DNA of 64,000 nucleotides, taken from positions 26,534,545 to 26,598,544 of the forward strand of contig OZ018411.1 in NCBI GenBank assembly GCA_963969595.1, written 5' to 3'. The notes beneath the pieces are model-generated. The model searched no databases. It saw only the letters and a program-made list of their open reading frames with translations, and was not told the origin of the DNA. This stretch comes from Neckera pumila (Eukaryota > Streptophyta > Bryopsida > Hypnales > Neckeraceae). Below are positions 1,247 through 56,688 of the stretch, one piece after another; within the stretch, counting starts at the first letter, position 1, and the number at the start of each line of letters is the position of its first letter. The position numbers and the translations under genes are program-made.

Positions 1247-2144
1247 GTAAGTGCCACCCCCGAGCCTTTTTTCTGCCAAAAACACCCAAAACTACCAATT
1301 TTTTAGCAAAGAGTGAAAAAAAATTAAAAATATTTTTTTTGCACATCTAACCATATGTTCTTATACCTAATTAGTATGAAAATGTGTGGAATTTTTTTTT
1401 AGAATTTTTGACCGCACAGATTGCAAGATATCTGCGTTTAAAGTGAAAAAAACAAACTTTTCAGCACATTGTGGGATTGGATTTTTTGACTTTGAACATT
1501 TTTAATTTAAAATTTTTACACTACAGAGTTTGAGCTTTAAATGTTTATAGTGGAGAATTGAGTTGAAAATCTACAACAAAAAAGAAAATCCAAGAAAACT
1601 TAATTGTCATTATTGAAAAAATTGTTAAGTAGAAGTAGGTACGAGATAGAAGGAAAATCTAAAACATTCATATATTTTAGATAGAATTAAAATGCACTAA
1701 TCCCAATGGTCAGATTGTTCTAGCAAGTAAACTTAACCATGAAAAAAAAAAATGGATCCTTCAAGTTATTTTTTCAAGAAGATGCTCTAATTGCCCGAAA
1801 AACAAGAATGTCCATAACTTTCTCATAACAAATCCAAATGAAATGAATCAAAGCTTTTTAGATAGAAAAAAATATAATCTATGAGAAAAAAAAAATACTA
1901 AAAAATAAAAAAAATAAAAAAGTGCAAATTTTTTTTGTTGCCCACCTTCCCCTGTTTTGAGCTTATTTGATCATAACTCTTGTTCCCAGGCAACAATTGT
2001 GAAAAAAATGATATTCCCATGAAGCTAATCAGATTTTCTACCTCCCGAAAAAGTTTCAAAAAATTAGGAGAAAATTTCAGAATGTAGGTACCTGCCCGAA
2101 AACACATATGTCCCCCAAAGGGACAACGGGCTTTTAGGGGTTAA
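1247..2144 (-). mobile_element. TTAA element 1 (subfamily A/B, B-end left)
   Basis: Right end is intact (GGGACAACGGGCTTTTAGGGGTTAA, read here in two parts: GGGACAACGGGC then TTTTAGGGGTTAA). The left end is decayed (TAAGTGCCACCCCCGAGCC) but continues into the family sequence CTTTTTTCTGCCAAAAA. The interior contains TTGTTAAGTAGAAGTAGG at 1622, the uninterrupted form of the site filled by element 3. No coding capacity. Confidence 0.75.
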
Positions 2145-3016
2145 GAGCATTGCCACCATTTCGTAGGAAAGCATGTGAACTCTGGAGTATTGACTTCGTG
2201 GATTTAAATCATTTTTGGTGTATTCTTAGTCCCCCACTCTTCTGTGCCATTGAACCACGGCATGCTCTATTTGCAGCTATTGTTCATGCACGTGTCGTCT
2301 TGGCGGGCCATGTTGTCAAAAAGCTGATAGCTATTCCTTGAGGATATCCCAAAATAATAGCTCAGTACAAGAAATGACATAGGAAGATGGCATGCCAAAC
2401 CATTTTTTTCAATGGCTCGGCCTAGATTTCACTATCCTCGAGTCCACAATGGGGGATGACATCACTCCCGAGCTCATCAACCACCTTACCGAGCCGATAT
2501 TTTGCAAAACAGTGGCGATGCTCTAATACAATAGTACGGATTTCTAGGGTACCCAGAGAATGTGCAATTAGGGACTTTGGTGCGTGACTGCGTGTTAGAG
2601 CATGGCCACCGTGGGATGCCCAAATTCCCACAGTGAAGCCAATTTGGCAAGCTACTAAAACTGATAGAGTCCAGTGAATACTACACGCCACACCGTAGGC
2701 CGGTCTAGACGAGTCATGGCTCCCAAATGCATTGAATTCCGATTTGCTTTTGACGAGCAAAGTGCACAATGCAATGATGAGCAAAGTGCTTTTGAACACA
2801 ACGATAAATAAAATTGAATGCAAATTGCTCTGACTTCAGTCAACACCGGGTCCCAAAGAAATTCTCCATCTACACCAACCAATGATACCCCGCCCAAAAT
2901 CTAACGAGCCCGGTGCTTGGGAAAGCACGCCCCGTGCCACAGTGGAGACTATTTTGCCGCCCGGCCCCTGCCAAACCTGCTCCAGCCAGGTGTAGCAAGT
3001 GACGGTGGGCATGCTC
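2145..3016. mobile_element. PIF/Harbinger-like non-autonomous element
   Basis: Inverted ends GAGCATTGCCACC and GGTGGGCATGCTC match those of the elements at 5189 and 12956. It abuts the TTAA end of element 1 on the left and TTAACCCCTAAATG on the right, so it lies at or in a TTAA-element terminus. The exact 3-bp duplication is ambiguous (TAA left, TTA right). Open frames inside are short and unrecognisable. Confidence 0.6.
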
Positions 3017-3168
3017 TTAACCCCTAAATGCCTGAGGCACCCAAATGTGATATTTGCTGGAGTGAATGAGTATGAAATTGGTTAGGCAATTATTGTACAC
3101 CTCCCTACAAAAAAGGTTGATGCCCCCCTTTTGCACCCTTCAGCTTTTTTGACATTACTTTGAACATA

Positions 3169-3284
3169 CATTAGAAGAGATTTGAGGGCACTAGAGGGCC
3201 GTTTCAGGCCCGTTCCTAATGCTGTCCCGATTTTGTGAATAGTTGGTATGGGCTGTTAGAATTTTTTTTTCAAAAAAATAAATA

Positions 3285-3353
<69 letters not shown>

Positions 3354-3520
3354 TTGCCCAAAATATCATTCTAAGCAATTTTTTTTTTTTTTTTCGAAAA
3401 TGACATGGCACTCTCTCGACCACATCAGCCCAGCAGCTTTTCTGCGTTCCACAGCGTAGGAACACTGCGGGAATGCAGGATAAGTTGCGGGCTCTTGGAG
3501 GCCTCAAATCTCTTCTAATG
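3169..3520. mobile_element. CATTAGA-type MITE, copy 1, nested in the foldback
   Basis: 19-bp perfect inverted ends CATTAGAAGAGATTTGAGG. The right arm of the host foldback gives the empty site (GAACATAATTGACA) with no visible target duplication. Internal sequence GGGCCGTTTCAGGCCCGTTC and GACATGGCAC recur in copies 2 and 3. Confidence 0.8.
3284..3353. repeat. (AAT)n microsatellite
   Basis: About 23 uninterrupted AAT units inside MITE copy 1. The long antisense tyrosine-run frame over it is an artefact of the repeat. Confidence 0.95.
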
Positions 3521-4385
3521 ATTGACATTTCTTATTTTTGTCAATCAACATTTGTGTCTAACCCAATCTCCCTCAAGTATACCAAATTTTCAATTTCAAA
3601 AAACCAAAACTCCATTTTTGGTGAATTTTTTAAATTTTTTTCACGGTTTTACATGAAAATTCATAGAAAAATATTAATGATGAATTTTTTTAATTTAATT
3701 GCGGAAATACATAGGAAACATCCAAATGCACATCTTTTCTTCAACAAGCATCTCCAAAAAAGTTTCACAATTATCATGGCAGAAGTTACAATGGAGGCGT
3801 GAATAGTGCTCAAAATTTTGAAAATTCATATCTCTTTATTGTAATTAGATTTTGTTTTTTTTCCTTCACGCTGTAACTAATTTTACACATTTGAGCATGA
3901 TGGTACAATTACTTTATCAAAATCTAATTACAATAAAGAGATATGAATTTTCAAAATTTTGAGCACTATTCACGCCTCCACTGTAACTTCTGCCATGATA
4001 ATTGTAAAACTTTTTTGGAGATGCTTGTTGAAGGAAAGATGTGCGTTTGGATGTTTCCCACGTATCTCCACAATTAAATTAAAAAAATTCATCATTAATA
4101 TTTTTCTATGAATTTTTATGTAAAACTGCGAAAAAAAATTTAAAAATTCACCAAAAATGGAGTTTTGATTTTTTCAAATTGAAAATTTAGTATACTTGAG
4201 GGAGATTGGGTTCGACACAAATGTTGATTGACAAAAACAAGAAATGTCAATTATGTTCAAAGTAATGTCAAAAAAGCTGAAGGGTGCAAAAGGGGGGCGT
4301 CAACCTTTCTTGTAGGGGGGTGTACTGTACTGAACCCAGGCTTGCCAGCCTTTTCTTAACGGCTCCTCCAATTTGAAGGATAAGT

Positions 4386-4474
4386 TATCTGTTTTCTTTT
4401 TTCTTCTTCCTTTCTTTTTTCTTTTTTCTTTCTTTTTTCTTTTTTCTTTCTTTTTTCTTTTTTCTTTCTTTTTT
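4386..4474. repeat. Polypyrimidine minisatellite, 18-bp period
   Basis: Pure T/C tract in which CTTTC recurs at 4410, 4428, 4446 and 4464, a period of exactly 18 bp. Such homopyrimidine mirror-like tracts can form triplex DNA. It lies just outside the foldback element. Confidence 0.85.
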
Positions 4475-5184
4475 GGACGCATATAAAGGACCGACTGTTT
4501 TCTGTTTTTGAGTGAGTGACATTTTTTGTGTACAGGACAGAAAGTTACTTTTGAGTGAGAAAGTGCGTTGCATTCCCCTGGCAAAGATTTTTGCATGGCA
4601 GCCAGATTGTCAATACTGTAATAAGAAATTAAAAAACAAAATAGAATTCCTACTGCAGTTGTCAGTTTTGGTAACGTACATCATAACTTCGAAAAAGGGG
4701 GGAAACGTTCGGAATTTCGGCACACAAGTAACAGGTTATATAACTTACTTCATTTGGGTCCAAGAAAAAACTTTTAAAAATGCCGAATCCCAACCCAAGG
4801 TCGGTGACAATAAAAATGATCTCACTTCCTGCAAATAGTGGGGGAGGCAGTAGGGCAAGTATCTAGCTGTTTAAAAATAGAGAAGCTCCATCCAGCACCT
4901 TTTCCTCCCACGAATCAAGCTAGAATTTTGAAGAAGATTTGGACGAATTGAAGGACGTTTTTTTCTTTTCTTTTTCCTTTTCAATTTGCCATATTGAGTT
5001 ACTAAACAAGACAGTACTTTCTGGCTTTCTGCAACACTGAACAGAAAAACACGGCTATTTTTTATCCTTTTTCCCAGGCCGTTCTCGGCTGGGAGCTTGT
5101 AATTTTATTTTCTTGCAGTAAAGGCACCCTTTACTTGTGTCAAAAAAAGAAAAACACTGCTATTTCGCACCTACCTTACCACGG
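4475..5184. other. Spacer, nothing recognised
   Basis: Low-copy AT-rich sequence. A 108-codon frame at 4512-4838 has no recognisable domain and overlaps the repeat edge. Confidence 0.3.
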
Positions 5185-5188
5185 TTAA

Positions 5189-5552
5189 GAGCATCCCCAC
5201 CCGGCTTGCAAAATGCAAGCCAGGTTGCAAGCCTGGCAGTCCATTTTGGTCCATTTTGCAAGCCGGGGGAGAAGGGTCGCCCCACCCGTGGCCTCTTAAG
5301 AGGCCATTGCCATCCAATGAACTACGTCCACATTCACAGATCATGTCCTTGCTTTTGGGGAAAGTGGAAAAGTGTTTGTCTCATGCGGTTTGCAAGCCAC
5401 CCTTTGGCTTGCAAAAGAGCCCGGTTTTGCAAGCCACTGGCGACTTTTGGCTTGGCCTCTTAACAAGTTCATCCATTATGCAAGACGGGTGGGGCAATTT
5501 TGCAAGCCTCTCTTAACAAGTCATCCAATATGCAAGACGGGTGGGGATGCTC
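5189..5552. mobile_element. PIF/Harbinger-like MITE with TAA duplication
   Basis: 364-bp element with inverted ends GAGCATCCCCACCCG and CGGGTGGGGATGCTC, flanked by TAA at 5186-5188 and 5553-5555. This is the 3-bp target duplication typical of PIF/Harbinger elements. Its interior (many TTGCAAGCC words) aligns in reverse with the larger element at 12956-14255 and preserves the empty site for TTAA element 7 at 5459-5463. Confidence 0.85.
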
Positions 5553-5674
5553 TAAGTTGCCTCACCGACCTCCCCTCACTGGTGGATTGAGTTAAGGATA
5601 TTGGTAGCTGCCCTATCCACCAGCAAAACATGTTCCCCAATTAGGTACTGTGATCGCTCCCCTCATTGGTCATA

Positions 5675-5869: not shown

Positions 5870-5960
5870 TATTGACCTAGTCAGGGCAATCTTTGCTTGT
5901 TTTAGTGGATTGTAGTGTCACAACGTCACATGGGTTGAATTAATGAGAATTCAAGTTTCC

Positions 5961-7799
5961 TTAACCCCTATAGGCCCAAAGCCCTCTTTCCATCAAAAAC
6001 CACTCAAAACTGCCATTTCTATAGCAAAGAGCAAAAAAAAATTTAATGTGTTTTTTGCATATTTAACAGTAGGATCTTGTGTTACACTAGTGTAAGAATG
6101 TGTGGAAGAAATTTTAGAAACTTTGACCGTGTAGATTGCAAGATATTTGCATTTAAAGTGAAGGAATCAAGTTCTTTTGCACCTTGTTCAACTACATCCT
6201 TTGGCTTTGAACCTTTCTAACTTAAATTTTTTGCTCTAATGATTTTGAATTTCTAATTTTGTATGATGAAGAATTGAGTTGGGGATCTAGGAAAAAAATT
6301 CAAAAAAAAAGCACTTAATTTTCACTCATTAAAAATTTGTTAACCCCCATTGACCAAGGCCTTTTTTCTGCCAAAAAGCTCTCAAAACTGCCATTTCTAG
6401 AGCAAAGAGTAAAAAAATTTAAAAACTGTTTTTTTTGCACATCTAACCATAGGATCTTATACCTAACTAGTATAAGAATGTGTGGAAAAAATTTCAGAAT
6501 TTTTGACTGCACAGATTGCAAGATATCTGCGTTTAAAATATAAAAAAAACAAGTTTTTCAGCACATTGCGGGACCAGATTTTTTGACTTTAAACATTATT
6601 AATTTAAAATTTTTGCACTATAGAGTTTTGAGCTTCAGATCTTTACAGTGGAGAATTGAGTTGAGAATCTAGGAAAAAAAATTCAAAAAAACTTAATTAT
6701 CATTCTTAAAAAAATTGTTAAATAGAAGTAGGTACAAGATAGAAGGAGAATCTAAAATATTCTTATATTTTAGATGGAATTAAAATGCACTAATCCCAAT
6801 GGTGAGATTTTTCTAGCAAGTAAACTAAACCATTACAAAAAAGAAAAATTGAAAAATTACAAAAACGGCATTCCGAACAAATCCTACAAGTTATTTTTTT
6901 CAAGAAGATGCTCTAATTGTCCAAAAAACAAGAATGTCTATAACTTCCTCATAACAAATCCAAATGAAATGAATCAAAGCTTTCCAAATAGACAAAAATA
7001 TAATCTATGAGAAAAAAATATTTAAAAAGAAAATTCAAAATTTGGAATTTTTTTTTTGCTGTCCCCCCTCCCTACGCATTCCAAGAAATTGCGTAACTTC
7101 TCGCTTGAACGATTTCAAATTTTTTTTTCTGCCACATACCTCTCTCAATTCTTCATGTTCACAAAAGTTTCAAAAAATCAAGAGAAAATTTCAGCCCGTA
7201 GGTACCTGCCCAAAATCCCATTTGTTCCCCGAAGGGACAATGGTCCTTTAGAGGTTAAGTAGAAGTAGGTTCAAGATTGAAGGAAAAATGAAATCATTAA
7301 TAGCTCTAAGATAGGGTTGAAATATACTAATCTCAATGGTGAGATTGTTCTAGCAAGAAATCTTAACCTTGTGCAGTTTTTTTTTTAAATTGTCAAAATT
7401 GAGCTCAGAAGTGAATCCTACAAGTTATTTTTTCAAGAAGATGCTCTAATTGCCCGAAAAATAAGATTGTCCATAACCCTTGCGTAACAAATCCAAATGA
7501 AATAAATCAAAGCTTCCCATGTAGATAAAAATAAAATCTATATGAAACAAATTTAAAAAAAAATTAATATACAGTTTTTGTGAGGGTTTTTTTTGGCCTA
7601 CCGAACTAAAATTTGGAGTTTTTCTGCCATAACTTTTGCTACCGAGCACCGATTGAATAGAAATTACATTTTTGGAAAGCTAATGTGATTCTCTATTTTC
7701 ACCAAAAAATTCAAAAGATTACAACAAATATTGAGGCCGTAGGAGCTTGCCCGAAATCCATTTTGTCCCTCGAGGGGACAATGGGCCTTTAGGGGTTAA
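5961..7799 (-). mobile_element. TTAA element 2 (A/B subfamily), interrupted by element 3
   Basis: Ends TTAACCCCTATAGGCCC at 5961 and GGGCCTTTAGGGGTTAA at 7799. Element 3 splits it at an internal TTAA. Left part is 5961-6343 and right part resumes at 7255. Unsplit length would be about 924 bp, the family size. Confidence 0.85.
6340..7258 (-). mobile_element. TTAA element 3, nested in element 2
   Basis: 919 bp, from TTAACCCCCATTGACC to GGTCCTTTAGAGGTTAA. Host sequence reads AATTTG-TTAA on the left and TTAA-GTAGAAGTAGG on the right. Uninterrupted relatives (for example element 1 near 1622) have one TTAA at that point, so the TTAA was duplicated on insertion. Confidence 0.88.
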
Positions 7800-8088: not shown

Positions 8089-9005
8089 TTAACTCCTAAA
8101 GGACCAATATGCGTTTTTTGGCAACATAGAAATTTTGGGCAGGTATGTGTGACTTGAGAGTTGCATATTTTGGGCTGAAGTTTTTATAGAAGGTGGGGAC
8201 AAGGAATATCTTTCATATGCACCAAATTTCATGACATTTGGAAATACGAGTCAAAAGTTATGGCCTAATATGTTGTTTGTTTCTCAACTCGGGTAGTCCA
8301 GGTTGATAAAAAATAAAAATAAAACTTTAAAACTGATTTATTAGATTTATACATATATGGAAAGCTTTGGATTATTCTATTTTGATCAATGAGTCAAACA
8401 TTACAAGGATTTTTAGTTTGCGGGAAGTTATGGATTGTCTATTCTAAACTAAACTTTGAAGTCGTTTATTTCACTCAATTTTCAATATTTTTCAAAAAAA
8501 AAAAATTGTCTGATGTAGATTTTTTATTAAAACATTCCAACCATTGGAATTGGCATTTTTCAATTTCATAATCAACTTCTTAACAGTTTAGTGTTTGAAC
8601 CATTATCTACTTCTTTCTGCTTACTATTTTTTCCTATATGTTGTACAATTCCAAATAATCTGAAATTTTTCAAGCATGTAGCCAACTTGCCCTGAAGAAT
8701 GAATCTAAAGAAGCACAACTATTTCAGACTTTTTTTCATAATAATCTGACCTTGTGAAGTGCAACTGCCTGGTTTTTTGCAAGGCCAAAAAATGGACTTT
8801 TGCTACTCCAAACGCTAATAACTTCCAATCTACATGATGAAAATTTTTGAAATTTTTTCCACACATTCTCAAACCAGAATACTATAAGATCCTATAGTTA
8901 TATGTGTCCAAAAATGATATTTTTAAAAAATTTGGTACTTGTCCTAGAAATGGCAATTTTGGAGCTTTTTTGGTGAGAACGTAGTCAAGGAACTTTAGGG
9001 TTTAA
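8089..9005 (+). mobile_element. TTAA element 4 (subfamily C)
   Basis: 917 bp from TTAACTCCTAAAGGACC to ACTTTAGGGTTTAA. The interior differs from subfamily A/B (GGCAACATAGAAATTTTGGG near the left end) but recurs in elements 6, 12, 17, 18 and 22. Confidence 0.85.
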
Positions 9006-10872: not shown

Positions 10873-11795
10873 TTAACCCCTAAAGTTCCATGATTACGTT
10901 TTCACCAAAAATGCTCAAAAATTGTCATTTTTAGAATAGGTATCAAAGTTTTGAATTTTTTTTTTATATATATAACAATAGGATCTTATAGTATGCTGAC
11001 TTGAAAACATGTGGCAAAAATTTCAGAATTTTTCCGCAACGTGGATTGCAAGATATAAGCATTCAAATTCATTAAAACCATTTTTTTGGCCCTGCAAAAA
11101 TAGGGCAGCTGCACTTCACAAGCTCACTTTTCTATGAACAAATGTCCAAAATGGTGGTGCTTCTTTGGATTCATTTTCCTAGACAAGTTGGCCACATGTT
11201 TGAAATATTTCACATCATTTGGAATTGTACAACATATACAAAAAAAATAGTAAGTAGATAGTAGTAGAGAATGATTCAAAATACTAAATTGTTAAGAATT
11301 TAATTATGGATTTGAAAAATGCCAATCCCAATGGTTGCAATGTTGTAATTTACATTATTCATCTTATGTTTGTTTTCTAAAAAAAAATACTGAAAATTGA
11401 ATAAGATAAAAGGACTTCTAAGTTTAATTAGAATAGAGAATCCAAAATTGCCCGCAAACAAAAAACCCTCATAACTTTTGTCTCATTGATCAAAATGGAA
11501 TGATTAAAAGCTTTCTATGTATATATAATTCTAAAAAATCAATTTCAGTTTTTTTTTTTAAAGTGTTTTTTCCTAATCTGCCCAAACGTCCCAATTACGA
11601 AAAAAAGTAACATATTAGGTCATAACTTTTGACTTGTATTTGTAAATGTCATGAAATTTAGTGCATATGAAAGATATTTTTTGCCTCCATCTTCAAATAA
11701 AATTTGGGTCAAAAATATGGAAATTCTCTAGTCACACATATCCATCCAAAAAAATTTTGTAGCCCAAAACCGTATGCTGGTTCTTTAGAGGTTAA
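10873..11795 (-). mobile_element. TTAA element 6 (subfamily C)
   Basis: 923 bp from TTAACCCCTAAAGTTCC to GGTTCTTTAGAGGTTAA. Opposite orientation to element 4. A 91-codon antisense frame at its right edge has no recognisable content. Confidence 0.85.
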
Positions 11796-12955: not shown

Positions 12956-14255
12956 ACTCGTCTTGTAAAACGGATGACATGTTGCCACCGGCTTGCAAAA
13001 TTGGCCCACCTTGTCTTGCATAATGGATGAATTTATTAACCCCTAAAGGACCATTGTCCCTTTGGGGGACAAATGCATTTTTGGGCAGGTACCTACAGGC
13101 TGAAATTTTCTTTGGATTTTTTGAAATTTTTTTTCGAGGTAGAAAATCTGATTAGCTTTGTGGTAATATAATTTTTTTCATAATCGGTGCCCGGGAACAA
13201 AAGTTATGACCAAATAAGCTCAAAATAGGGGACAACGGGCAGCCCGGGCAGCAAAAAAAAAATGGACAAAAATTTGAATTTAAATATATATATTTTTTTT
13301 CTCATAGATTATATTTTTGCCTATTTGGGAAGCTTTGATTCATTTCATTTGGATTTGTTATGAGAAAGTTATGGACATTCTTGTTTTTCGGGCAATTAGA
13401 GCATCTTCTTGAAAAAAATAACTTCTAGGATGCATTTCTGAATGCAATTTTTCAAATTTTTCATTTTTATTTTTTTTCCATGGTTTATATTACTTGTTAG
13501 AACAATCTCACCATCGGGATTTTTGCATTTTAATTCCATTCAAAATATATGAATATTTTAGATTTTCCTTTTATCTCGTATCTACTTCTATTTAACAATT
13601 TTTTAAAGAAGGAATATTAAGTTTTTTTGAACTTTTTTTTTTTTCCTAGACTCTCAACTCAATTCCCCACTACAAACATTTAAAGCTCAAAACTCTATAG
13701 TGCAAAAGTTTTAAGTTAAAAATGTTCAAAGTAAAAAAATCTAGTCCCACAATGTGCTGAAAAATTTGTTTTTTTCACTTTAAACGCAGATATCTTGCAA
13801 TCTGTGCGGTCAAAAATTCTGAAATTTTTTCCACACACTCTTATACTAGTTAGGTGTAAGATCCTACGGTTAGATGTGAAAGAAAAACATTTTTCAAATC
13901 TTTTAACTTTTTACAATAGAAATGGCAGCTTTGAGTGTTTTTTGGCAGGAAAAGGGCCTCGGTCCTTTAGGGGTTAAGAGGCTGGTCCAAAAGCCTCCAG
14001 TGGCTTGCAAAACCGGGCTCTTTTGCAAGCCAAAGTGCAGCTTGCAAATTGCATTAGACAAGCACCTTTTGCACTTTCCCAATAAATATGGACTTGATGA
14101 GTGAATGTGGACGTAGCTCATTGGAGTGATTTATTACCTCTTAATGATGACCTCTTAATAGGTTGTGGGCACGGTGATCCTTCTTCCTTGGCTTGTAAAA
14201 TGGATTGATGGGCTTGCAAAACGGCTTGCATTTTTCCAATCTGGTTGGGATGCTC
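12956..14255. mobile_element. PIF/Harbinger-like element with TTA duplication, split by TTAA element 7
   Basis: Ends GAGCATCCCCACTCG and GGTTGGGATGCTC flanked by TTA at 12953-12955 and 14256-14258. Without the inserted element 7 it is about 360 bp, the size of the copy at 5189-5552, to which it aligns in reverse along its whole length. Confidence 0.82.
13036..13977 (+). mobile_element. TTAA element 7, nested in a Harbinger-like element
   Basis: 942 bp, both ends intact: TTAACCCCTAAAGGACC and GGTCCTTTAGGGGTTAA. Host flanks read ATGGATGAATTTA-TTAA and TTAA-GAGGCTGG. The related element at 5189-5552 reads (reverse strand) ATGGATGAACTTGTTAAGAG with one TTAA, a direct empty-site comparison. Confidence 0.92.
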
Positions 14256-15253: not shown

Positions 15254-15553
15254 GGTCAAACCGTTTTCGAGTACGTCTGTGCTGACTTGCTAGCTAGAGC
15301 TGTACGTCAAGAGTTTTGATCAGGTGCTTATACTATTAAACTACTTAGGAATGTATAGAATGCAGTAAGATTGAGGGAGACTGAAGGACATATTGATGTC
15401 TTGGACCCATACATGATATCCGACTTCTGCAATGTGTTTCTGATTTCTGCACGTTTTTCCGAGATTAGTGGAGATTGATGTGTTGGTGGACTGAGGGGGA
15501 AGGCTGAGAGGGGGAGTATAACTACTGCAGTGGTAGTAGCTAGAAGAAGCACG

Positions 15554-16840
15554 ATGTGCTTGCATTTCGCAGAAGAGGAAACGAAGAGAATGCGAATTCA
15601 TCCGTATGAGTTTCACCACTCGGAACGCTTGATGCCCAGCGTCTACAAAACCAGTAGTTCCTTGTCTGATCTTTCTCCTGCTGGCGTAACCTCGTCGTCG
15701 ACTTCGGCAGACACGGACGGTGAGGGCACGTGGAATTCGGGGTGCGATGGGGGCATGCCTGTAGCGATTCCAGTTCCATTCCAAGCGGTTATGGCTCCGG
15801 AAGAAGGGAAGGTGTGGTGGACCATGCGTTGCGATCCAGCGTACCAGTCAGAGGCCGAAGAGCAAGGCTGTAGTAATGACGAGATGATGAAGGAGTCGAC
15901 GAGCGAGGAGATGGAACCTCATTTCATGAAGTCGTCGCTTGGAAGTAGCGCAACCAAGTTGTGTCCTCGTGGTCACTGGCGTCCCGCCGAAGACGAGAAG
16001 CTGCGGGAGCTCGTATCCCATTACGGACCCCAGAATTGGAATCTCATTGCGGAGAAGCTGCGCGGCCGATCAGGTAGTGCAACTGTTACGGGATTCTGAA
16101 CCGCAGCTGATCATGCTTTCAAGCAAGGGTGGTTACGAATATGAGAATTGTGAGGTGCTTTGTGTGCGTGTCTGACGATCTTGACGACGGGTGATGTTTC
16201 AGGCAAGAGCTGCAGATTGCGCTGGTTCAACCAGCTCGACCCGCGCATCAACCGGCGCCCGTTCACGGAGGACGAAGAGGACCGTCTGCTGGCCGCGCAT
16301 CGCTTCCACGGCAACAAGTGGGCCATGATCGCGCGCCTCTTCCCGGGCCGCACCGACAACGCCGTCAAGAACCACTGGCACGTGGTCATGGCGCGGAAGT
16401 ACCGCGAGCGCTCGCGCTCCAGCGCCGGACGTCGCAGGGCGTCGCAAACCCCGCGTCCTCGCGCGACCTCGAGCATCACAAACCATTGTGAGGATACTCA
16501 CAGCCTCCGGTCTCCGCAGCCCCCGCCATCCCCGAGCTTTGACATCGTCACAGATTCTCCTCAGGTGCGGCACAACCACTGGGCCCCCTCCCTCATCAAT
16601 CCCTTTGCCAGTACTGTGCTCGACGCCAGAAGTTTCCTTGCTTCTAGCTGCAGAGCTGGGCTTCTGTTGCAGCAGCAAAGGCAGTTTGAGGGTTTGCCAG
16701 CCTTTATGGAGGAGCTTAGTGAGAGTCCCGAGCAGAGAGTTTCGTACTGTGGTGACCAAAGTCACCAAACACTACAACAGTCGGAAGATACTGCGACCGC
16801 TACTCCTTTCATTGATTTTCTCGGAGTTGGCGCAATTTGA
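15554..16840 (+). CDS. R2R3-MYB transcription factor, subgroup 21-like (join 15554-16073, 16203-16840)
   Basis: Nuclear DNA-binding regulator of 385 residues in two exons. Seen: repeat R2 with tryptophans at 142, 162 and 181, then R3 with Phe194 replacing the first tryptophan and W213 and W232 following. Spacing is 18-19 residues, as expected for MYB helices. The exons join in phase 1 inside a glycine codon (GRSG/KSC). The protein ends in [10 protein letters not shown], which matches my memory of the C-terminal motif of the MYB52/54/56/69/105/110/117 group. Known members act in secondary wall formation, organ boundaries and seed or flowering traits; the role here is unknown. The first 136 residues are Ser/Glu-rich without a recognised domain. 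The first ATG in frame after the upstream stops is 15554; another lies at 15590 and cannot be excluded. GC content is far above the surrounding sequence. The family call is secure; the subgroup is likely. Confidence 0.93.
16074..16202 (+). other. Intron 1 of the MYB gene
   Basis: 129-bp phase-1 intron with GT donor (GATCAG/GTAGTG) and AG acceptor (TGTTTCAG/GCAAG). Removing it joins the two halves of R2 exactly at the conserved [11 protein letters not shown] sequence. Reading through instead gives a stop at 16097-16099 and loses the end of R2 and all of R3, so the intron is required. This position is, as I recall, the common first-intron site of subgroup 21 MYB genes. Confidence 0.92.
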
Positions 16841-19428: not shown

Positions 19429-20361
19429 TTGATCTCTAAAGTCCCAAGGTCATTTTTCTGTCAAAACCCACTCAAAATTGCCATTTTGGCTGCGTTCACC
19501 CAAGAACACAAAAAAAAATATTTTCTTAGAATCTAACCATAGGATCTTGTACTTCACTTGTCAAAGATCATGTGGTAAAAATTTCATGAAGTTTGACCGT
19601 ATGGATTGGAAGATATTAGCATTCAAAGTTGAAAAAGAAAGTTTTTTTGAATTTTTGACCTGCAATTTCAGATGACTTTGACCGCCATTTGTGGAAATTT
19701 TTTGCACTACAGACTTTGAATTTAAAACTTTTTATGTTGAAGATGTAAGTTGAAATTCTACCAAAAAAAATTCAGAAAACATACACGTGAATTTTCATTC
19801 TTTAAATAATTGTTAAGTAGAAATAGGCCCAAGATTGAAAAAAAACTAAATCGTTAGTAGCGCTTAGATGGGATTGAAATGCAATAATTCCAATGGTGAT
19901 ATTGTTTTATCAAGCAAACAAAACATTCTCCAAAAGAAAATAGTAAAAAATTGTGACAATTGCATTCAAAAATGAATCCTACAAGTTATTTTTTCAAAAA
20001 GATGCTTAGATTACCCAAAAAACAAGATTGTCCATAACTTGCTCATTATTAGTCCAAATAAAATGAATCAAAGCTTTACATGTAGACAAAAATATAAAGT
20101 TTCAGAGAAAAAGAAAATGAAAATTTATTTTGACTTTTTGCAAAAAAGATTGTGCTACCCGCCGAGTTCAGTTTGAGGCTTTTTGTGGTATAACTTTTGC
20201 TCCCGGGCACCAATTGAAATAAAAATTATATTCCCACAAGGCTAATCAGTTTTTCTATCTTATGGAAAAGTTTCAAAAAGTTTCACTAAAAATTGAGCCC
20301 GTAGGTACCTGCCCGAAATCTGATTTGTCCCCCGAGGGGACAATGGTCCTTTAGGGGGTAA
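19429..20361 (-). mobile_element. TTAA element 8 (A2 subfamily)
   Basis: 933 bp, from TTGATCTCTAAAGTCCC to GGTCCTTTAGGGGGTAA; both terminal tetranucleotides have decayed by one base. The interior (TGCGTTCACC, GACCGTATGGATTGGAAG) defines a sub-branch shared with elements 11 and 23. Confidence 0.82.
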
Positions 20362-21818: not shown

Positions 21819-21940
21819 TTAACCCCTAAAGGACCAAACACCATTTTTTGGCAATATAATGATTTTGGGTAGCTCACTACAAATGAAGTTTTTATTTTTT
21901 CTTTGGACATTCCACACAACCATGTGCCCGAGGAGTAGCA

Positions 21941-23782
21941 TTAACCCCTAAAGGACCATTGTCCCTTTGAGGGACAAATGGGATTTCGGGTAGGTACCTA
22001 CGGGCTGAATTTTTGTCATGATTTTTTGAAACTTTTTTTGGAGATAGAAAAATTGACAAGCTCCGTGGGAATAAAAGTTTTTTTTCTATTGATGCCTAGG
22101 AACAAAAGTTATGCCCAAATAAGCTCAAAACAAGGGAGAGGGGGCAGCAAAAAAGTTTTGCAAAAAGTTTAACCCCTAAAGTCCCATTGTCCCCTCGGGG
22201 GACAAATCAGATTTCAGGCAGGTACCTACGAGCTGAATTTTTGTTTTGATTTTTTGAAACTTTTTGTGAAGATAGAAAAATTGCTAAGCTTCGTGGGAAT
22301 ATAATTTTTTTCCAATTGGTGCCCGGGAGCAAAAGTTATACCACAAAAAGCCTCAAACCAAACTCGGCGGGCAGCAAAATTTTTTTGGCAAAAAGTCAAT
22401 TTTTTTTTTCTCTTTCTCTGAAAGAATATATTTTTGTCTAAATCTGAAGCTTTGACTCATTCCATTTGGATTTATTATGAGAAAGTTATGGACAATCTTA
22501 GTTTTTGGGCATTTAGAGCATCTTCCTAAAAAAAATAACTTGTAGGATTCATTTTTGAATGCAATTTTCACAATTTTTCACAATTTTTTTTTTGAGAATG
22601 TTGTGTTTGCTTGATAAAACAATATCACCGTTGGGATTATTGTATTTCAATCCCATCTAAGAGCTATTAACGATTTAGTGTTTTTTTCAATCTTGGACCT
22701 ATGTCTACTTAACAATTTTTTAAAGAATGAAGATCAAGTGTTTTTTCTTTGAAATTTTTTTCCTAGATTCTCAACTCACATCTTCAACATAAATTTTTTT
22801 TAATTCAAAGTCTATAGTACAAAAGTTTTCCACAAATGGGGGTCAAAGTCATCTGAAATTACAGGCCACAGTTCAAAAAAGCTTCTATTTCCAACTTTAA
22901 ATGCTAATATCATCCAATCTATACGGTCAAACTTCATGAAATCTTTACCACATGATTTTTAACAAGTGAAGTACAAGATCCTACGGTTAGATTCTAAAAA
23001 AATGATTTTTTTTGTGTTCTTGGATGAACGCAGCAAAAATGGCAGTTTTGAGCGTTTTTTGACAGAAAAATGGCCTTGTGACTTTAGGGGTTAATTTTTA
23101 AAAAAAAATATCCTTTTGTCTATTTGGAAAGCTTTGATTCATTTCATTTGGATTTTTTTATGAGAAAGTTATGGACAATCTTGTTTTTCAGGCAATTAGA
23201 GCATCTTTTTGAAAAAAATAATTTGTAGGATTCATTTTGGAATGCAACTTTTGCAATTTTTCAAAAAAAAAAGTTCCACATGGTTTAGTTTTCTTGCTAG
23301 AACAATCTCACCATTGGGATTAGTGCATTTTAATTCCATATAAAAGATATTAATACTTTAGGTTTTCCTTCTATCTTGTAACAATCCTACTTCTACTTAA
23401 CAATTTTTTTAAGAATGAAAAATTAAGTTTTTTTGAATTTCTTTTTGTTTCCTAGACTCTCAACTCAATTCTCCACTACAAAGATTTAAAGCTCAAAACT
23501 CTGTAGTGCAAAAATTTAAGTTAAAAATGTTCAAAGTCAAAAAATCTAGTTCCGCAATGTGCTGAAAAATGTGTTTTTTTCACTTCAAACGCAGATATCT
23601 TGCAATCTGTGCAATCAAAAATTCTGAAATTTTTTCCATGCATTCTCATACTAGTTAGGTATAAGATCCTGTGGTTAGATGTGCAAATATAACAATTTTC
23701 AATTTGTTTTACTCTTTGCTCTAGAAATGGCAGTTTTGAGAGTTTTTTGGCAGAAAAAGGGCCTTGGTTCTTTAGGGGTTAA
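21941..23782 (+). mobile_element. TTAA element 10, nested in 9 and hosting 11
   Basis: Ends TTAACCCCTAAAGGACC at 21941 and GGTTCTTTAGGGGTTAA at 23782. Net length without element 11 is about 920 bp. Host flanks GGAGTAGCA-TTAA and TTAA-GGTCCAAC match one TTAA in the opposite arm of element 9. Confidence 0.88.
22169..23094 (+). mobile_element. TTAA element 11 (A2), innermost of a triple nest
   Basis: 926 bp from TTAACCCCTAAAGTCCC to GACTTTAGGGGTTAA. It interrupts element 10 after GCAAAAAG; the host resumes with TTAATTTTTAAAAAAA. Related elements read through this A/T-rich position. Confidence 0.87.
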
Positions 23783-24301
23783 GGTCCAACAATTTTCATA
23801 ACTTTTGACTACATGGCTAAAAAGTTATGGCATGATATGTAGTTTTTGTTACTCGGCAGGCAGCCTGGGCAATTTAGTCTCTGGACTTCATACCTGGCTA
23901 CCTACAAACTAGAATCCCTCATAACTGTCACCTCATTAAACAAAATGGAGTGATTCAAAATTCTTAATGTCTAAATAAATCTTAAGAACCAATTTCAATT
24001 TTTCATTTAAAAAAAGAATAATTTTTTGAAGAAGTTTTTTGAGCTACCTGGGCTGCCCGTTGATTAATAAAAACTACATGTAATGCCGTAACTTTTTAAC
24101 CGTGTAGTCAAAAGTTATGAAAATTGTTGGACCTTAAAGCTACTCCTTGGGCACATGTTGTGTGAATTTCCAAATAAAAAAAATAAAAACTCCGTTTGCA
24201 GTGAATTGCCCAAAATTGCTATGTTGCCAAAAAACGATGTTTGGTCCTTTAGGGGTTAATATGCCATTGTTATAGACCCCAAAATTAATGTTTTAGATTT
24301 C

Positions 24302-25996
24302 TTAACTCCTAAAGGACCAACATGCATTTTTTGGCTATATAGAATTTTTGGGCAGGTACGTGTGATTAAAGATTTCTATGTTTTTGGCGCAAATTTTAAC
24401 TTCTAAAGGACCATTGTCCCTTTGGAGGACAAATGCAATTTTGGGCAGGTACCTATGGGCTAAATTTTTTTCTTGATTTTTTAAAACTTTTTTTGAAGAT
24501 AGAAAAACTGATAAGCTTTGTGAAAGTATAATTTTTTTTAGTTGGTGCCCAAGAACAAAATTTTTTTTGCAAAAATGTGAGTTAAACTTTTTTTTTCTCA
24601 TAGATTATATTTTTGTCTATTTAGAAAGCTTTAATTTATGTCATTTGGATTTGTTATGAGAAGTTTATGGACAATCTTGTTTTTTGGGCAATTAGAGCAT
24701 CTTCTTGAAAAAATAACTTGTAGGATTCGATTCTGAATCCAATTTTTGCAATTTACAGAAAGAAGTTCTACATGGTTTAATTTTCTTTCTAGAACAATCT
24801 CACCATTGAGATTAGTGCATTTTAATTCCATCTAAAAGATATTAATATTTTAGATTTTCCTTCTATCTTGTACCTACTTCTACTTAACAATCTTTTTGAA
24901 TTTCTTTTCCCTTTAGCTTTCAACTCAATATTCCACTATAAAGATGTAAAACTCAAAACTCTATAAAGCAAAAAATTTAAGTTAAAAATGTTCAAAGTCA
25001 AAAATTATAGTCCCGCAATGTGCTAAATACTTGTTTTTTTCACTTTAAACGCAAATATCTTGCAATCGATCTGTGCGGTCAAAAATTCTGACATTTTTTC
25101 CACACGTTCTCATACTAGTTAGGTGTAAGATCCTACAGTTAGATGTGCAAAAAAAACAATTTTCCATTTTTTTTACTCTTGGCTATAAAAATGGCAGTTT
25201 TGAGTGGTTTTTTGGCAGAAAAAAGGCCTTCATCTTTAGGGGTTTATAAAAGGTAGGGACAAGGAATATCTTTCATATGCACTAAATTTTATAACATTTG
25301 GAAATATGAATCAAAAGTTATGGCCTAATATGTTATTTTTTTGGTAAATGGACAATCCGGGCAGATCAGAAAAAAACGCATCAATGAGTCAAAAGTTATG
25401 AGGATTTTTTGTTTGAAGGCAGTTATGGATTTTCTACTCTAAAATGAACTTTGAAGTCCTTTATCTTACTCAATTTTCAATATTTATTGAAAAAAATAAA
25501 ATCATGGGATGTAGAATGTTTATTACAAAATTACAAACATTGGAATTGACATTCTTCAATTCTATAATTAAATTCTTAAGTATTTAAATCATTCTCTACT
25601 ATTGTCTACTTACGATTTTTTCCCTATATGTTGTACAATTCCAAATGATGTGAAATATTTCAAGTATGTTTCCAACTTGTCTAGAAAAAAGAATCCAAAG
25701 AAGCACCACCATTTTGAACATTTTTTCATAGAAAACTGAGCTTGTGAAGTGCAATTGCCCTGTTTTTTGCAGGGCCATAAAAATGATTTCAGTGAATTTG
25801 AATGCTTATATCTTGCAATCCATGCGGTGGAAATTTCTGAAATTTTCTTCACATGTTCTCAAGTCATCATCATACTACAAGATCCTACGGTTAGACTTGT
25901 CTCAATATTTTTTTTTTAAAATTTGGTGCTTGTTCTATAAATGACAGTTTTTGAGCGTTTTTAGAGAAAACATAGCCATGGAACTTTAGGGGTTCA
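24302..25996 (+). mobile_element. TTAA element 12 (subfamily C), split by element 13
   Basis: Left end TTAACTCCTAAAGGACC; right end AACTTTAGGGGTTCA with a decayed TTAA. The interruption occurs where other C copies read AAATTTTAATAGAAGGTGG, which contains a TTAA. Confidence 0.8.
24396..25246 (+). mobile_element. TTAA element 13 (A/B), nested in element 12
   Basis: About 851 bp from TTAACTTCTAAAGGACC to ATCTTTAGGGGTTTA; the right tetranucleotide has changed. Somewhat shorter than family size, with small internal deletions. Confidence 0.78.
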
Positions 25997-27569: not shown

Positions 27570-28517
27570 TTAACCCCTAAAGGACCAAACACCATTTTTT
27601 GGCAACGTAGCAATTTTGGGCAGCTCACTGCCTCACTACAAATGGAAATTTCAATTTTTTTCCTTGAAATTTTCATACAAGATGTGCCCAAGGAGTAGCT
27701 TTAAGGCCCAACAATTTTCATAACTTTTGACTTTATGGATAAGAAGTTATTGCATGATATGTAATTTTCCGCGTTTGGCAGGCAGTCCGGTCGGCTCAAA
27801 AAAATTCTTTAAAAAATTCTTTTTTGAAAAAGTAAAATTTGAAATTGGTTTTATAGATTTATATATACTTGGAAAGCTTTGAATCATTCCATTTGGATTA
27901 ACAAGTCAAAAGTTATGAGGAGTTTTAGTTTGAGGGTATTTATTGAATCTCTACTCTAAAATAAACTTTGAAGTCCTTTATCTAACTCAATTTTCAATAT
28001 TTTTGAAAGAAATAAAAAATATTGGGTGTATATTTTTTATTACAACATTACAACCTTTTGAATTGGTATTTTCCAATTCCATAATTAAATTCTTGACAAT
28101 TTAGTATTTTGAGTCATTCTCTACCTCTTCCTACTTACTATTTTTTCCTGTATGTTGTACTATTCCAAATGATCTAAAAATTTTCAAGCGTATAGCCAAC
28201 TTGCCTAGAAAAATGAATCCAAAGAGTAACCAGCATTTGGGACATTTTTTCATACAAATGTGACCTTATGAAGGGCAGCTGCCCGGATTTTTGCAGTGAT
28301 TAAAATAGAATTTTTGTCAATTCAAACACTATTATCGTGCAATCTACATGGTGGAAAATTCTGAATTTTTTCCATGTCTTCTTAAACTAGTGTACTACAA
28401 GATCCTACAGTTACATATGTTCAAAAATGTTCTTTTTCTAAAATTTGGTACTTGTATTAAAAATGGCAGTTTGGAGCGGTTTTGGTGAAAACATAGTCAA
28501 AAGCCTTTAGGGGTTAA
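27570..28517 (+). mobile_element. TTAA element 14 (D left end, C body)
   Basis: 948 bp from TTAACCCCTAAAGGACC to GCCTTTAGGGGTTAA. The first 250 bp match subfamily D; the remainder matches subfamily C, so it is mosaic. Its uninterrupted GTAGC-TTTAAGGCCCAAC near 27697 is another empty form of the element-10 site. Confidence 0.85.
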
Positions 28518-52114: not shown

Positions 52115-52709
52115 GTATGCTTGTCTGCTTGTTAAGTCTCTCGTTGCCCTTGTTGAGTGATTGGGATTTGCTTCCTGTGCGGCCTGAGTGCTTTGGTTTT
52201 CTTGTAATGGCAGCTTGCGTAGGCAATTTGTTGGACTTCTTGTGATTGTTTCTTGTTTCTTTGTTTTTTTGAAGTATTAGTGCTAGATTATTTGTTCTTT
52301 TTTTGTTGTCCACGTACACTGAACTGCCGCAATGCCTTTGGGAGGTCATGTACATTCTTTCGACTTGGGTTAGGGTTGAACCCCGTCGGTCATGTGGAAA
52401 GGGAAACTATTGTTTGAGTAGGCTCTGGGTGCAGATCTTTTGAACGAACCGACTTTAATCAACCATGAGCAATCTCACACGCGAGTGTCAAGATGAATTT
52501 TTAATAATATTTGGCTTATTTTCCTGTCCTTAGTTCTTGAATTAAGTTTCCTCGCCATGGAGCATGTCTTTCATTCACGCAGTGCTTACCGGATCTTTTG
52601 AATCTGGAATAAGTCAAGAGGGGCTGTAATTACAGTTCGTCACAGTGCTCTAGCTATGGTTGCTTCAATTTGATCCCCGAATTAAATCTAGGATGTGATA
52701 ATGGTGCAG
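52115..52709 (+). other. Possible 5'-UTR intron of the zeaxanthin epoxidase gene
   Basis: A donor-like GTATGC at 52115 follows GC-richer leader sequence. A T-rich stretch then leads to an acceptor-like GGTGCAG ending at 52709, about 70 bp before the start codon. Splicing would leave a short leader upstream of the ATG. Inferred from splice-site appearance and base composition only. Confidence 0.3.
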
Positions 52710-52777
52710 ATCATAGAGTTCAGAAGAGCGAGGAGAATTGAGCTCTCATTCTAGAGCTGTTCTGAGAGCAAGGAATC

Positions 52778-54808
52778 ATGGTGATAACCTGTGCAATTCC
52801 TGCTGTTGCGGGATTGGTCTCATCCACCGCGCTTCCCAAGTCTGCAGCATCAATCCGATCTTCCGAGTTTCTCGACTCGTCATGGCGGAGGGCAGCTCTG
52901 AGCACCGCCATCGTTGAGCTCAGCGTGCATGGAAGACGAAAACCATCCGGTGTCTGTTTCGCAAGGACGCAAACGGTCGAGGAAGCAAAAGAATTCGAAA
53001 GCCGCACATCGAACGGCAGCGTGAGCACCTCCGAGGCTGCGGAATTGGTGCCACCGAAGACAAGACCCTTGCGAGTTCTTATAGCCGGTGGTGGCATTGG
53101 GGGTCTTGTCCTCGCCCTCGCAGGGAAGAACAGGGGCTTAGACGTGGTGGTCTTCGAGCGAGACATGAGCGCCATCCGAGGAGAAGGCCAGTACCGAGGC
53201 CCCATCCAGATCCAGAGCAACGCCCTTGCAGCTCTTGAAGCGGTGGACCGCGACGCTGCGGAGGAGATTTTGTCGACTGGCTGTGTCACCGGGGACCGCA
53301 TCAACGGCCTCGTGGATGGAATCTCCGGTGAATGGTACTGCAAGTTCGACACCTTCACACCCGCAGCCGAACGAGGACTTCCCGTCACGCGCGTCATTAG
53401 CCGGATGAAGCTCCAGGAGATTCTGTCTAGTGCACTTGGACAAGAGTACATTCAGAATGGCGCCAATGTGGTGGACTTTGTGGACAATGGCAGCGAGGTG
53501 AAGGTGGTGCTGGAGGATGGACGGACGTTTGAAGGGGATGTGCTAGTGGGCGCTGATGGTATCCGCTCGAGAGTGAGGACGAAGTTGCTCGGGAAGACCG
53601 CCACTGTGTATTCGGACTACACTTGCTACACGGGGATCGCTGATTTTGTACCTTGTGATATTGAAACGGTGGGGTACCGCGTCTTTCTTGGCCATAAGCA
53701 GTACTTCGTTTCGTCGGATGTGGGGCAAGGAAAGATGCAATGGTATGCGTTTTACAATGAGGCTGCTGGTGGAGTTGATGCACCTGGTGGAAGAAAAGCA
53801 AGGTTGATGTCGCTGTTTGGACACTGGTCTGATAAAGTGGTGGATCTGCTGGACGCTACTCCAGAGGATCAGATTCTGCGCCGTGATATTTACGATCGTA
53901 TTCCCATTTTGACGTGGAGTAAGGGACGCGTGACGTTGCTCGGAGACTCCGCGCATGCTATGCAGCCGAATTTGGGGCAAGGAGGTTGCATGGCGATTGA
54001 AGACGGGTTTCAGCTTGCTTTGGATCTGTCGAAAGCTGCACAGCTACCGAATGCAAATCTTGTGAAAGTTCTGAAGGCCTATGAGGGGAAAAGGCGGATA
54101 CGCGTTGGGGTGATTCATGGGCTAGCACGAATGGCGGCCATCATGGCCACGACGTACAAGCCGTATCTCGGTGAAGGGTTGGGACCTCTGTCGTTTATTA
54201 AGGAATTGAAGATTCCCCATCCCGGTCGCGTGGGAGGGAGGTTTTTCATTACTATTGGTATGCCTACCATGCTCAGCTGGATTCTTGGTGGAAACAGCTT
54301 CGCATTGGAAGGCCGTGCTCCATACTGTAGTTTGGAAGATAAGGCGCACTCGAACCTGAGGAAGTGGTTTTGGAACGATGACGCGCTGGAGAGAGCTACG
54401 AATGCGGAGTGGTACTTGGTGCCTGCTGCCGAGAGATGTCCCATTGCAGGGGAGGTCACAGAAAGCGGGAAGCCTTTGCTGCGTTTATGTCGGGAGGATG
54501 CGAAGTCCACCGTCGTGGGATGCGTGCCTTGTGAATCAACTGATGGTGGGGTTTTCCACGCTGTGAAGTTGCCAAATGTTGCAGACAATCATGCTAAGCT
54601 TATGTTCGTGGACGGTGCTCTATTTATTACGGATTTGGACAGCAAGACTGGCACGTGGATTACGAGCATTGCAGGTGGGAGGCATAAGCTTACACCGAAA
54701 ATGCCAGCGCGAGTTCGGCCCGAGGATATCATTGAGTTCGGCCCTTCTAAAGAGGCCCAATTCAAGGTGAAGCTACGGAGGCTTCAGGAAGGCCCATCAG
54801 ACTCCTAG
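52778..54808 (+). CDS. ZEP: Zeaxanthin epoxidase, chloroplast precursor, uninterrupted frame
   Basis: FAD- and ferredoxin-dependent monooxygenase that turns zeaxanthin into antheraxanthin and violaxanthin in the plastid. It resets the xanthophyll cycle and supplies abscisic acid precursors. 676 residues, close to the usual 660-670. Seen: Ser/Ala/Arg-rich leader of about 80-95 residues fitting a transit peptide; Rossmann GGGIGG at 104-109 with the closing acidic residue E127; the hallmark QYRGPIQIQSNAL; GADG at 258-261; second FAD motif GDSAHAMQPNLGQGG from 389; and a C-terminal FHA-like domain about 566-640. In the FHA part, R572 is present, but the usual glycine before it is C571 and the expected serine near the NHA motif is A602. 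No intron interrupts the frame, unlike the many-exon angiosperm genes. The start is the first ATG of the frame, in front of the leader. The enzyme call is very secure. Confidence 0.96.
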   Translation: MVITCAIPAVAGLVSSTALPKSAASIRSSEFLDSSWRRAALSTAIVELSVHGRRKPSGVCFARTQTVEEAKEFESRTSNGSVSTSEAAELVPPKTRPLRVLIAGGGIGGLVLALAGKNRGLDVVVFERDMSAIRGEGQYRGPIQIQSNALAALEAVDRDAAEEILSTGCVTGDRINGLVDGISGEWYCKFDTFTPAAERGLPVTRVISRMKLQEILSSALGQEYIQNGANVVDFVDNGSEVKVVLEDGRTFEGDVLVGADGIRSRVRTKLLGKTATVYSDYTCYTGIADFVPCDIETVGYRVFLGHKQYFVSSDVGQGKMQWYAFYNEAAGGVDAPGGRKARLMSLFGHWSDKVVDLLDATPEDQILRRDIYDRIPILTWSKGRVTLLGDSAHAMQPNLGQGGCMAIEDGFQLALDLSKAAQLPNANLVKVLKAYEGKRRIRVGVIHGLARMAAIMATTYKPYLGEGLGPLSFIKELKIPHPGRVGGRFFITIGMPTMLSWILGGNSFALEGRAPYCSLEDKAHSNLRKWFWNDDALERATNAEWYLVPAAERCPIAGEVTESGKPLLRLCREDAKSTVVGCVPCESTDGGVFHAVKLPNVADNHAKLMFVDGALFITDLDSKTGTWITSIAGGRHKLTPKMPARVRPEDIIEFGPSKEAQFKVKLRRLQEGPSDS

Positions 54809-55761
54809 TGAGGAAACAGAAGTATTTGACGACTATTCAATTGCGGTGGGACTCCAGAAACACTACTTGGTACACAGATTTGGACCCACGGATCTTATTA
54901 TTTGTTGAAGTGCAGCTACAAAATCTTGCCACTGTGGCCCTGCAGAATAGGATTACCAATGTATGAAATAGTAGGCAACTGAAGTTTACCCCTTTGTATA
55001 TTATTAGTATGTAATCTGTCCCACCTGCATTTTTATAAACCAGCCCTGAGAAGCGTATTCTATTGAAACAAATTAAGGTCCTTTCTAGCTTCAATAGCTA
55101 CTTAATCCAAATTTTGTGGCTTGATTGAATTGAATTTGATTTAACTGAAAAAAATTAAGTTTAAACACTGTTTGTAATATTAGATATTGTGGATACAATG
55201 GTCAATGTGTTTAAATATATATATATATATATATGATTTGTGACTATCCACTTTGGCCACTTTTGCAAATGTCAAATACCCCTGGTTTTGGTCACTTTGG
55301 AGCAGCGCTTTAGAAGCTTCAAGTTTTTGAATGACAAGCCTTGAATCTAGTTGTAGGTATGTACCTACAAGCATTTGGAGATGTTTATAACATATGTACG
55401 TATAAAATAGGTTTTCTATAACATGAAAAGAGTCTATAACTTAGACACCTATAATCATAGAAGTGTCTATTATATAGACTTTTAGGTTCACAGGCTTATA
55501 GATTCTATGCTCTTATGTTGGCATTCCCCCACCAATATAAATTATTAAACAATGTATTGAAATTTTATTTGCAGTTTAAGCATGCAAATAGATATTTTAC
55601 ACTTACTTGGCTAGCATAGGTGTCATTTGGATTTTATGATAGCTGCAAGCATTTGCTTGTATTTTGTTTAATTTACAAATGTTCATACAATGTATCTAAT
55701 TACTTCTTGGCTTAATGTTTAGAAATGACAAGGACAATATATTTGAATGCAAGCTATTTAC
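54809..55761. other. Epoxidase 3' flank and AT-rich spacer
   Basis: 3' untranslated sequence follows the stop codon and grades into AT-rich spacer. A short (AT)n run lies at 55218-55234. I see no gene and no poly(A) tract or target duplication that would mark the intronless gene as a recent retrocopy. Confidence 0.4.
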
Positions 55762-56688
55762 TTAACCTTTAAAGTCCCAAGGCCATTCTCCTGTCAAAAA
55801 CCATTGAAAACTACCATTTTTGTTGCATTCACCTAAGAAAAAAACAGTAATAATAAATTTAGAACCTAACAGTAGGGGCTTGTACTTCACTTGTTTGAAA
55901 TCATGTGGTAAAAATTTCATGAAGTTTGGCCGTATAAATTGGAAGATTTTTGCATTCAAAGTTGAAAAAGAAATCTTTTTTGAACATTGTCTTGCAATTT
56001 CAGATGGCTTTGACCGTCGTTTTGTGGAAATTGTTTGCATTGTAGACTTTGAAAAAAAAAAAATTTACGTTGAAGAACTGAATGGAAAGTCTTAAGAAAA
56101 AAACTAAAAAGAACACACTTGACTTTCATTTTTTTTTAAATTGTTAAGTAGAAGTAGGTTCAAGATTGGAAAAAAAACGAAATTGTTAATAACTCTAAGA
56201 TGGGATTGAAACACAGTAATCCCAATGGTGAGAATGTTTTAGCAAGAAAACACAACCTTCTCAAAAAACAAATTGTGAAAAATTGTGAAAATTGCATTTA
56301 AAAACGAATCCTACAAGTTATTTTTTCAAGAAGATGCTTAGATTGCCCGAAAAAACAAGATTGTCCTTAACTTTCTCATTCTTAGTCCAAATAGAATGAA
56401 TCAAAGCTTCATATGCACACAAAAATATAATATTTAAATTTTTTTTTTTTTGAGTTTTTGAGTTTTTGCATTTTTTTTTGTATTGCCCGCCGAGTTCAGT
56501 TTTAGGCTTTTTGTGGTATAACTTTTGCTCCCAGTCACCAAATTGAAATAAAAATTATATTCCCACATAGCTAATCAGTTTTTCTATCTTATGAGAAAGT
56601 TCCAAAAAGTTTCATAAAAACCAAGGTCACAGAACCTGCCCAAAATCCAATTTGTCCCCTAATGGAACAATGGGACTTTATGAGTTAA
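55762..56688 (-). mobile_element. TTAA element 23 (A2 subfamily)
   Basis: 927 bp from TTAACCTTTAAAGTCCC to GGGACTTTATGAGTTAA. Interior matches element 8 throughout. Confidence 0.83.

Follow-up and report, generated by a model that had tools for sequence, protein, structure and literature searches.

The repeats of about 0.92 kb that crowd this stretch of DNA are gene-less elements which have their ends, their subterminal DNA and their TTAA target duplications in common with full-length piggyBac transposons of the same genome, and which have very probably been multiplied by a transposase of that kind acting in trans. The piggyBac superfamily is known mainly from animals, where it is valued as a tool for its scarless excision, and to our knowledge it is apparently a very minor component in flowering plants, while older surveys of piggyBac-like sequences reportedly included plants among the hosts. 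The window, that is, the whole stretch of 64,000 nucleotides which was analysed (C4:26534545-26598544), belongs to an assembly of 339.5 Mb in 18 contigs.

The terminal motif TTAACCCCTAAAGGACC matches the window 31 times at up to three mismatches, nine of these matches being exact, against an expectation of 0.18 and a maximum of two matches in 100 shuffles of the window. The inverted ends of the elements read TTAA|CCCCTAAAGGACC, and when the core was searched minus its TTAA, this tetranucleotide was found in front of 22 of the 27 matches with up to two mismatches, the other five being preceded by GTAA, TTAC, TGAA and, in two cases, by letters unlike TTAA. The inventory of the family covers 17,493 bp in 20 blocks (27% of the window), which we resolve into 18 full or near-full elements, mostly of 0.80-0.95 kb with one of 0.6 kb, and six fragments or degenerate pieces; the reversed-window control for this inventory gave two short matches. 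Of the 31 terminal-motif matches, 28 fall inside the inventoried blocks. The remaining three, at 3017, 29712 and 30021, are found elsewhere and point to more diverged family members, so that the inventoried length is a lower bound. The sequence-only reading had counted about 23 elements and about 20 kb, and both figures may hold once more diverged copies are counted. The features are the following, with positions in the window:

1247..2144, minus strand: non-autonomous subfamily A element, inner terminus decayed
5961..7799, minus strand: subfamily A element, 924 bp minus its insert, interrupted by 6344-7258; an example of the TTAA duplication
6340..7258, minus strand: subfamily A element nested in 5961..7799, TTAA on both sides
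8089..9005, plus strand: subfamily B element, TTAA to TTAA
9596..10516, plus strand: subfamily A element, outer end exact, other flank GTAA
10873..11795, minus strand: subfamily B element (B type copy), TTAA to TTAA
13036..13977, plus strand: subfamily A type copy, both 17-nt ends exact
19431..20361, minus strand: subfamily A element, on a branch with 22169 and 55762, flanks decayed
21819..24259, plus strand: triple nest, TTAA at each junction
21819-21940 and 23783-24259: outer layer of the triple nest, a 599-bp element
21941-22168 and 23091-23782: middle layer of the triple nest, an A element
22169..23094, plus strand: innermost A element of the triple nest, TTAA to TTAA
24302..25994, minus strand: subfamily B element split by the A element 24396..25244
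24396..25244, plus strand: A element within the B element 24302..25994, right flank TTTA
27570..28517, plus strand: subfamily B-type element, TTAA to TTAA
31215..32147, plus strand: subfamily B element, TTAA to TTAA
32584..33461, minus strand: subfamily B element, TTAA to TTAA
44738..45486, plus strand: degenerate A-related element, about 64% identity
45885..46682, minus strand: subfamily B element, single recognisable end
55762..56688, minus strand: subfamily A element, diverged furthest among the full copies, with 63-80% identity to other A copies

Alignment of the copies separates two related subfamilies, represented by the type copies 13036-13977 (A) and 10873-11795 (B), both with a TIR of about 14-17 bp and with inner sequence that differs between the two ends; the A copies of the window show 63-87% mutual identity. 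No stop-free frame of more than 100 codons was found in the 14 window elements checked for coding, and nine transposase frames from the same genome gave no match to the window below E = 1, in agreement with the earlier statement that no copy encodes a transposase. Rfam and tRNA scans of the window were also empty.

TTAA is the duplicated target of both the short and the full-length elements. When the nested insert 6340-7258 is excised together with one TTAA, a 924-bp element is restored which aligns from one end to the other with other full-length copies of the short family, and a single TTAA stands at the insertion point in all eight other aligned copies. Removal of 22169-23094 leaves a host element of 920 bp, a case which is evidence by length only and no empty-site proof, because the insertion point falls in a poorly alignable A/T-rich stretch. 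Genome-wide, TTAA precedes 1,879 of the 2,151 exact copies of the 18-nt end CCCCTAAAGGACCATTGT, which by composition would be expected for about 1% of them (our estimate, at 65% A+T). A longer target duplication, of the 8-9 bp typical of the hAT or Mutator type, was ruled out, since beyond TTAA the left and right flanks of a copy show no match to each other in the 14 copies compared. It could also be thought that the short elements are Tourist (TTA/TAA) or Stowaway (TA) MITEs for which TTAA is merely a favoured context, these being common plant MITEs with A/T-rich targets according to the available text of PMC10004981, but the target is the four-base TTAA and not TA or TTA/TAA, all four bases being conserved in the genome-wide count; moreover, the insertion point is occupied by just one TTAA in relatives, and the full-length relatives are piggyBac and not mariner or Harbinger elements, and we consider this explanation extremely improbable.

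The search of the genome with PF13843, the profile of the piggyBac transposase family, gave at least 116 matches (the number scored), all above the cut-off, from 872 first-look candidates, distributed over eleven contigs (C1-C11), of which 35, counted by eye, are without internal stops, while the same profile gave zero matches in 14 control genomes. Contamination as the source of these transposases is unlikely, because they lie on eleven contigs and because the window holds plant genes. Twenty of the 116 loci were retrieved, and among them several families have copies which are 96.5-99.5% identical, with one family at 81-95%. The scan of these 20 loci with 1.5 kb of flank revealed no credible ends because the elements are longer, so flanks of 3 kb were taken for five families, whereupon both ends were found in F1, F3 and F4, one end in F2 and no pair in F5. 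The F3 element (C1:22492088-22499387) measures 7,300 bp with the ends CCCCTAAAGGACCAAGGCC and CCCCTAAAGGACCATTGTCCC, the F1 element (C9:13927880-13933513) measures 5,634 bp with CCCCTAAAGTCCC at each end, and F4 (L015) is 5,371 bp long, has ends unlike those of the others (CCCCTTGRGGACT) and is present in copies about 99% identical.

Full-length elements with a PF13843 (DDD) transposase are present between TTAA + CCCCTAAAG ends like those of the short elements. In both F1 and F3 a piggyBac transposase gene lies between TTAA, a TIR matching that of the short elements, and related subterminal DNA; the gene is uninterrupted in F1, and in the F3 copy that was read it is cut short by a stop close to the C-terminus. 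Autonomous copies with a DDD/DDE transposase between the same ends, for which the sequence-only reading had proposed to search the assembly, are therefore present in the same genome. Two more insertions were compared for each of F1, F3 and F4. Identity ends exactly at TTAA in nine of the 12 end windows and within 1-8 nt of it in the remaining three, and in the 8-nt case both copies adjoin the end of another such element. The end windows of these insertions are 96.5-99.8% identical, and since the boundaries recur at other insertions with ends 96-99.8% identical, the full-length elements have likely moved recently. A further F1 copy lies inside an A element; its flanks, once joined, align with the 21941 host at 82% over 558 columns through the junction, and at the position taken by this F1 copy both A6340 and the 21941 host have just one TTAA. 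The recurrence of the boundaries at TTAA, together with these empty-site relatives, establishes that the full-length elements also insert at TTAA.

F2 was dropped as a bounded element, since its right side adjoins a 348-bp satellite and its left identity begins at a GAA repeat; in both of its further windows, identity continues past the end into the satellite. The satellite, which adjoins the F2 right end at L031:361-3000 (C2), has 7.6 copies in 2.6 kb at 96%, and is also the right flank in L050 (C3) and L051 (C5); it thus borders F2 copies on three chromosomes, the junction lying at a TTAA of its unit. Such a junction would result if F2 and the satellite were amplified together, or if F2 inserted repeatedly into one site.

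The connection between the short and the full-length elements goes beyond the terminal repeats. Each of the seven A elements tested has matches to F1, F2 or F3 on its two sides, of 22-97 bp on one and of as much as about 320 alignment columns on the other, the best match being that of A19431 with F2 (80% over 290 columns, E 4e-67). Identity of the A copies to the fetched autonomous ends is 66-80% over the longer matches, and 86-95% over the outermost 36-53 bp, with one case of 100% over 22 bp. As regards subfamily B, two of five elements have matches to full-length elements at each end, the other three have them on a single side or within it, and all of these matches are weak. The short elements are thus non-coding, present in high copy number and share both ends with a transposase-bearing element (7/7 A, 2/5 B), as expected of piggyBac-derived MITEs, and the piggyBac-like lineage proposed from the window alone is supported by full-length PF13843 elements with the same ends. 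Kolobok and Sola3 likewise duplicate TTAA, and the short elements might accordingly belong to one of these superfamilies, the piggyBac elements with similar ends being a coincidence; nevertheless, the piggyBac elements share with the A copies not only TTAA and the TIR but also subterminal sequence at both ends, with E values down to that of the A19431 match, which makes this alternative very improbable. A 19-nt near-palindrome, TTGTCCC-N5-GGGACAA, is situated just inside only one of the two ends in A elements, F1 and F3 (decayed in the A element 9596), and we suggest it as a candidate transposase-binding site.

On the genome-wide scale, the 17-nt end has 12,107 exact occurrences in the 339.5 Mb and none in the reversed control. 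Scaled up very roughly by the share of exact ends in the window (nine of 31), this leads to about 40,000 ends, and hence to about 20,000 elements. The density of exact ends in the window is about four times the genome mean. Eight loci were read outside the window, six of which hold an element of 856-933 bp (79-89% mutual identity), while the far end was not recognised at the other two. Short copies overall are thus 63-89% alike, whereas full-length copies within a family are mostly 96-99.8% alike, and this difference could mean that the short elements are relics of an older burst driven by an extinct relative, the present full-length elements representing a later, non-mobilising wave. Against this, the subterminal DNA shared by short and long elements demonstrates common descent of their ends, and younger short copies may exist, since only eight of the 1,879 loci were read outside the window; we consider the older burst rather unlikely.

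The short elements were most likely mobilised in trans by the lineage of these full-length transposons, as we infer from the common ends; a transposase of this clade, whether or not its own copy survives, would bind the common terminal sequence. By analogy with insect piggyBac, in which the transposase binds the ends, cuts at CCC and inserts into TTAA, it would excise the element at CCC and insert it into TTAA. The 0.92-kb form may have been derived from a longer element through loss of its middle, and it is proposed to have spread because both ends were kept. Because the A copies are 63-87% alike and only 66-80% identical to the autonomous ends over the longer matches, the full-length copies fetched are to be regarded as relatives of the source element rather than as the proven source.

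The transposase itself supports the assignment to piggyBac. P0001, the 567-aa core of the 894-codon F1 frame, matches PF13843 at 1.6e-81, and in phmmer searches it matches piggyBac 6x67 at E 6e-36 and piggyBat 9c0f at E 4e-24. Three of its aspartates, D220, D311 and D429, show no variation among 25 relatives, and the alignment places them opposite D268, D346 and D447 of 6x67, which we take to be the catalytic residues. With the TTAA duplication, a short TIR starting with CCC (CCCCTAAAGGACC / CCCCTAAAGTCCC) and PF13843 between the ends, this aspartate triad gives the elements the characters of piggyBac. A C/H-rich tail is visible in P0001, with no Pfam zinc-ribbon match. Between F1 and F3 the core shows 72.5% identity (dN 0.19; dS 2.7, saturated), a sign of purifying selection, and the N-terminal stretch, which exceeds 300 residues, is diverged and has no Pfam match, shows 41% identity over 279 aligned residues, with conserved blocks.

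In a quick tree of 20 sequences from the genome and the 66 of 120 listed relatives with at least 430 residues, which carries long-branch warnings for L015 and L022, the genome's transposases fall into several separate lineages, with at least six label changes, and those of F1, F2 and F3 group in one lineage, which has 99% SH-aLRT support and also includes one database sequence. Other deep piggyBac lineages of this genome are represented by L015, L022, L013/L020, L014/L018/L026 and L024. Among the best 120 of 319 relatives of P0001, most of which are given without organism, the one entry with a named organism is an insect and no plant is named; among all 52 relatives of the F4 transposase, again mostly without organism, those named are only animals and one fungus, with no plant.

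Compared with the piggyBac element IFP2 of Trichoplusia ni (6x67), the moth element whose TIR, as we take it, also starts with CCC, the present elements likewise have a TTAA target, a short TIR of that kind and a PF13843 DDD transposase, but they differ in their plant host, in their length (5.4-7.3 kb versus about 2.5 kb), in the TIR sequence CCCCTAAAGGACC, and in open frames which, among the fully read elements, reach 894 codons and include the diverged N-terminal stretch. The piggyBat transposase (9c0f), presumably that of a bat element, belongs to the same superfamily and is distant in sequence. The piggyBac-like MITEs described for corals in the available text of PMC2872659 are likewise non-coding and tied to piggyBac-like transposons, their hosts being animals, and for animal piggyBac the accessible part of PMC10813416 gives TTAA plus 5' motifs such as CCCTT. 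As regards plants, a repeat table of the fern Ceratopteris has a line of 1,230 PiggyBac copies amounting to 0.12 Mb (PMC6890710, in the part available), whereas the present genome has bounded full-length elements, target duplications, open transposases and thousands of short relatives. PiggyBac is also named, with no detail in the passages available, among plant DNA transposon or MITE superfamilies (PMC10794571, PMC10004981), the latter including it among those of angiosperm MITEs. In the accessible portions of two further papers, 'piggybacking' has another sense (PMC10619864, on moss) and piggyBac occurs only within a reference title (PMC8232201). The search of the open-access literature, with subscription papers and Repbase outside its scope, found no description of piggyBac in a moss among the papers listed. 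Since reviews and the fern table already list plant PiggyBac, the elements add a new member to a known superfamily, in a host unusual for it, and do not form a superfamily of their own.

The earlier assignment of the window to a plant genome was right and can be narrowed to a likely moss on the matches of zeaxanthin epoxidase. This protein is encoded by the ORF 52766-54808, and within the best 120 of 1,719 matches its nearest ones are 81-95% identical, with Physcomitrium patens (74%) and Sphagnum balticum (75%) ahead of liverworts and vascular plants. The gene is a single uninterrupted ORF of 680 codons here; in most vascular plants it has many introns. At 15479-16840 there is an R2R3-type MYB gene, probably of two exons, with Myb_DNA-binding matches in two adjacent ORFs. 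The window also contains a tandem array at 61620-62814 (235-bp unit, 5.1 copies, 94% matches) and, at 852-1027, a degenerate array (19/57 bp) made up of CCCTGAACCCTA-like units, which may represent a telomere-like repeat in decay.

Taken as a whole, the nucleus of this moss may, as a tentative view which we hold at somewhat less than even chances, harbour a living and diversified piggyBac fauna, with several deep lineages, near-identical copies still jumping in some of them, a plant-specific N-terminal extension and thousands of gene-less followers. If this is true, a land plant would for the first time have a well-documented active piggyBac system of its own. A plant lineage of the superfamily that is native, has moved recently and has matching ends would supply a plant-adapted tool. 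Moreover, it would offer a natural system for asking why piggyBac stands out in this genome when its place in flowering plants is apparently so small, and the short and long elements together constitute a large repeat class for the annotation of moss genomes.
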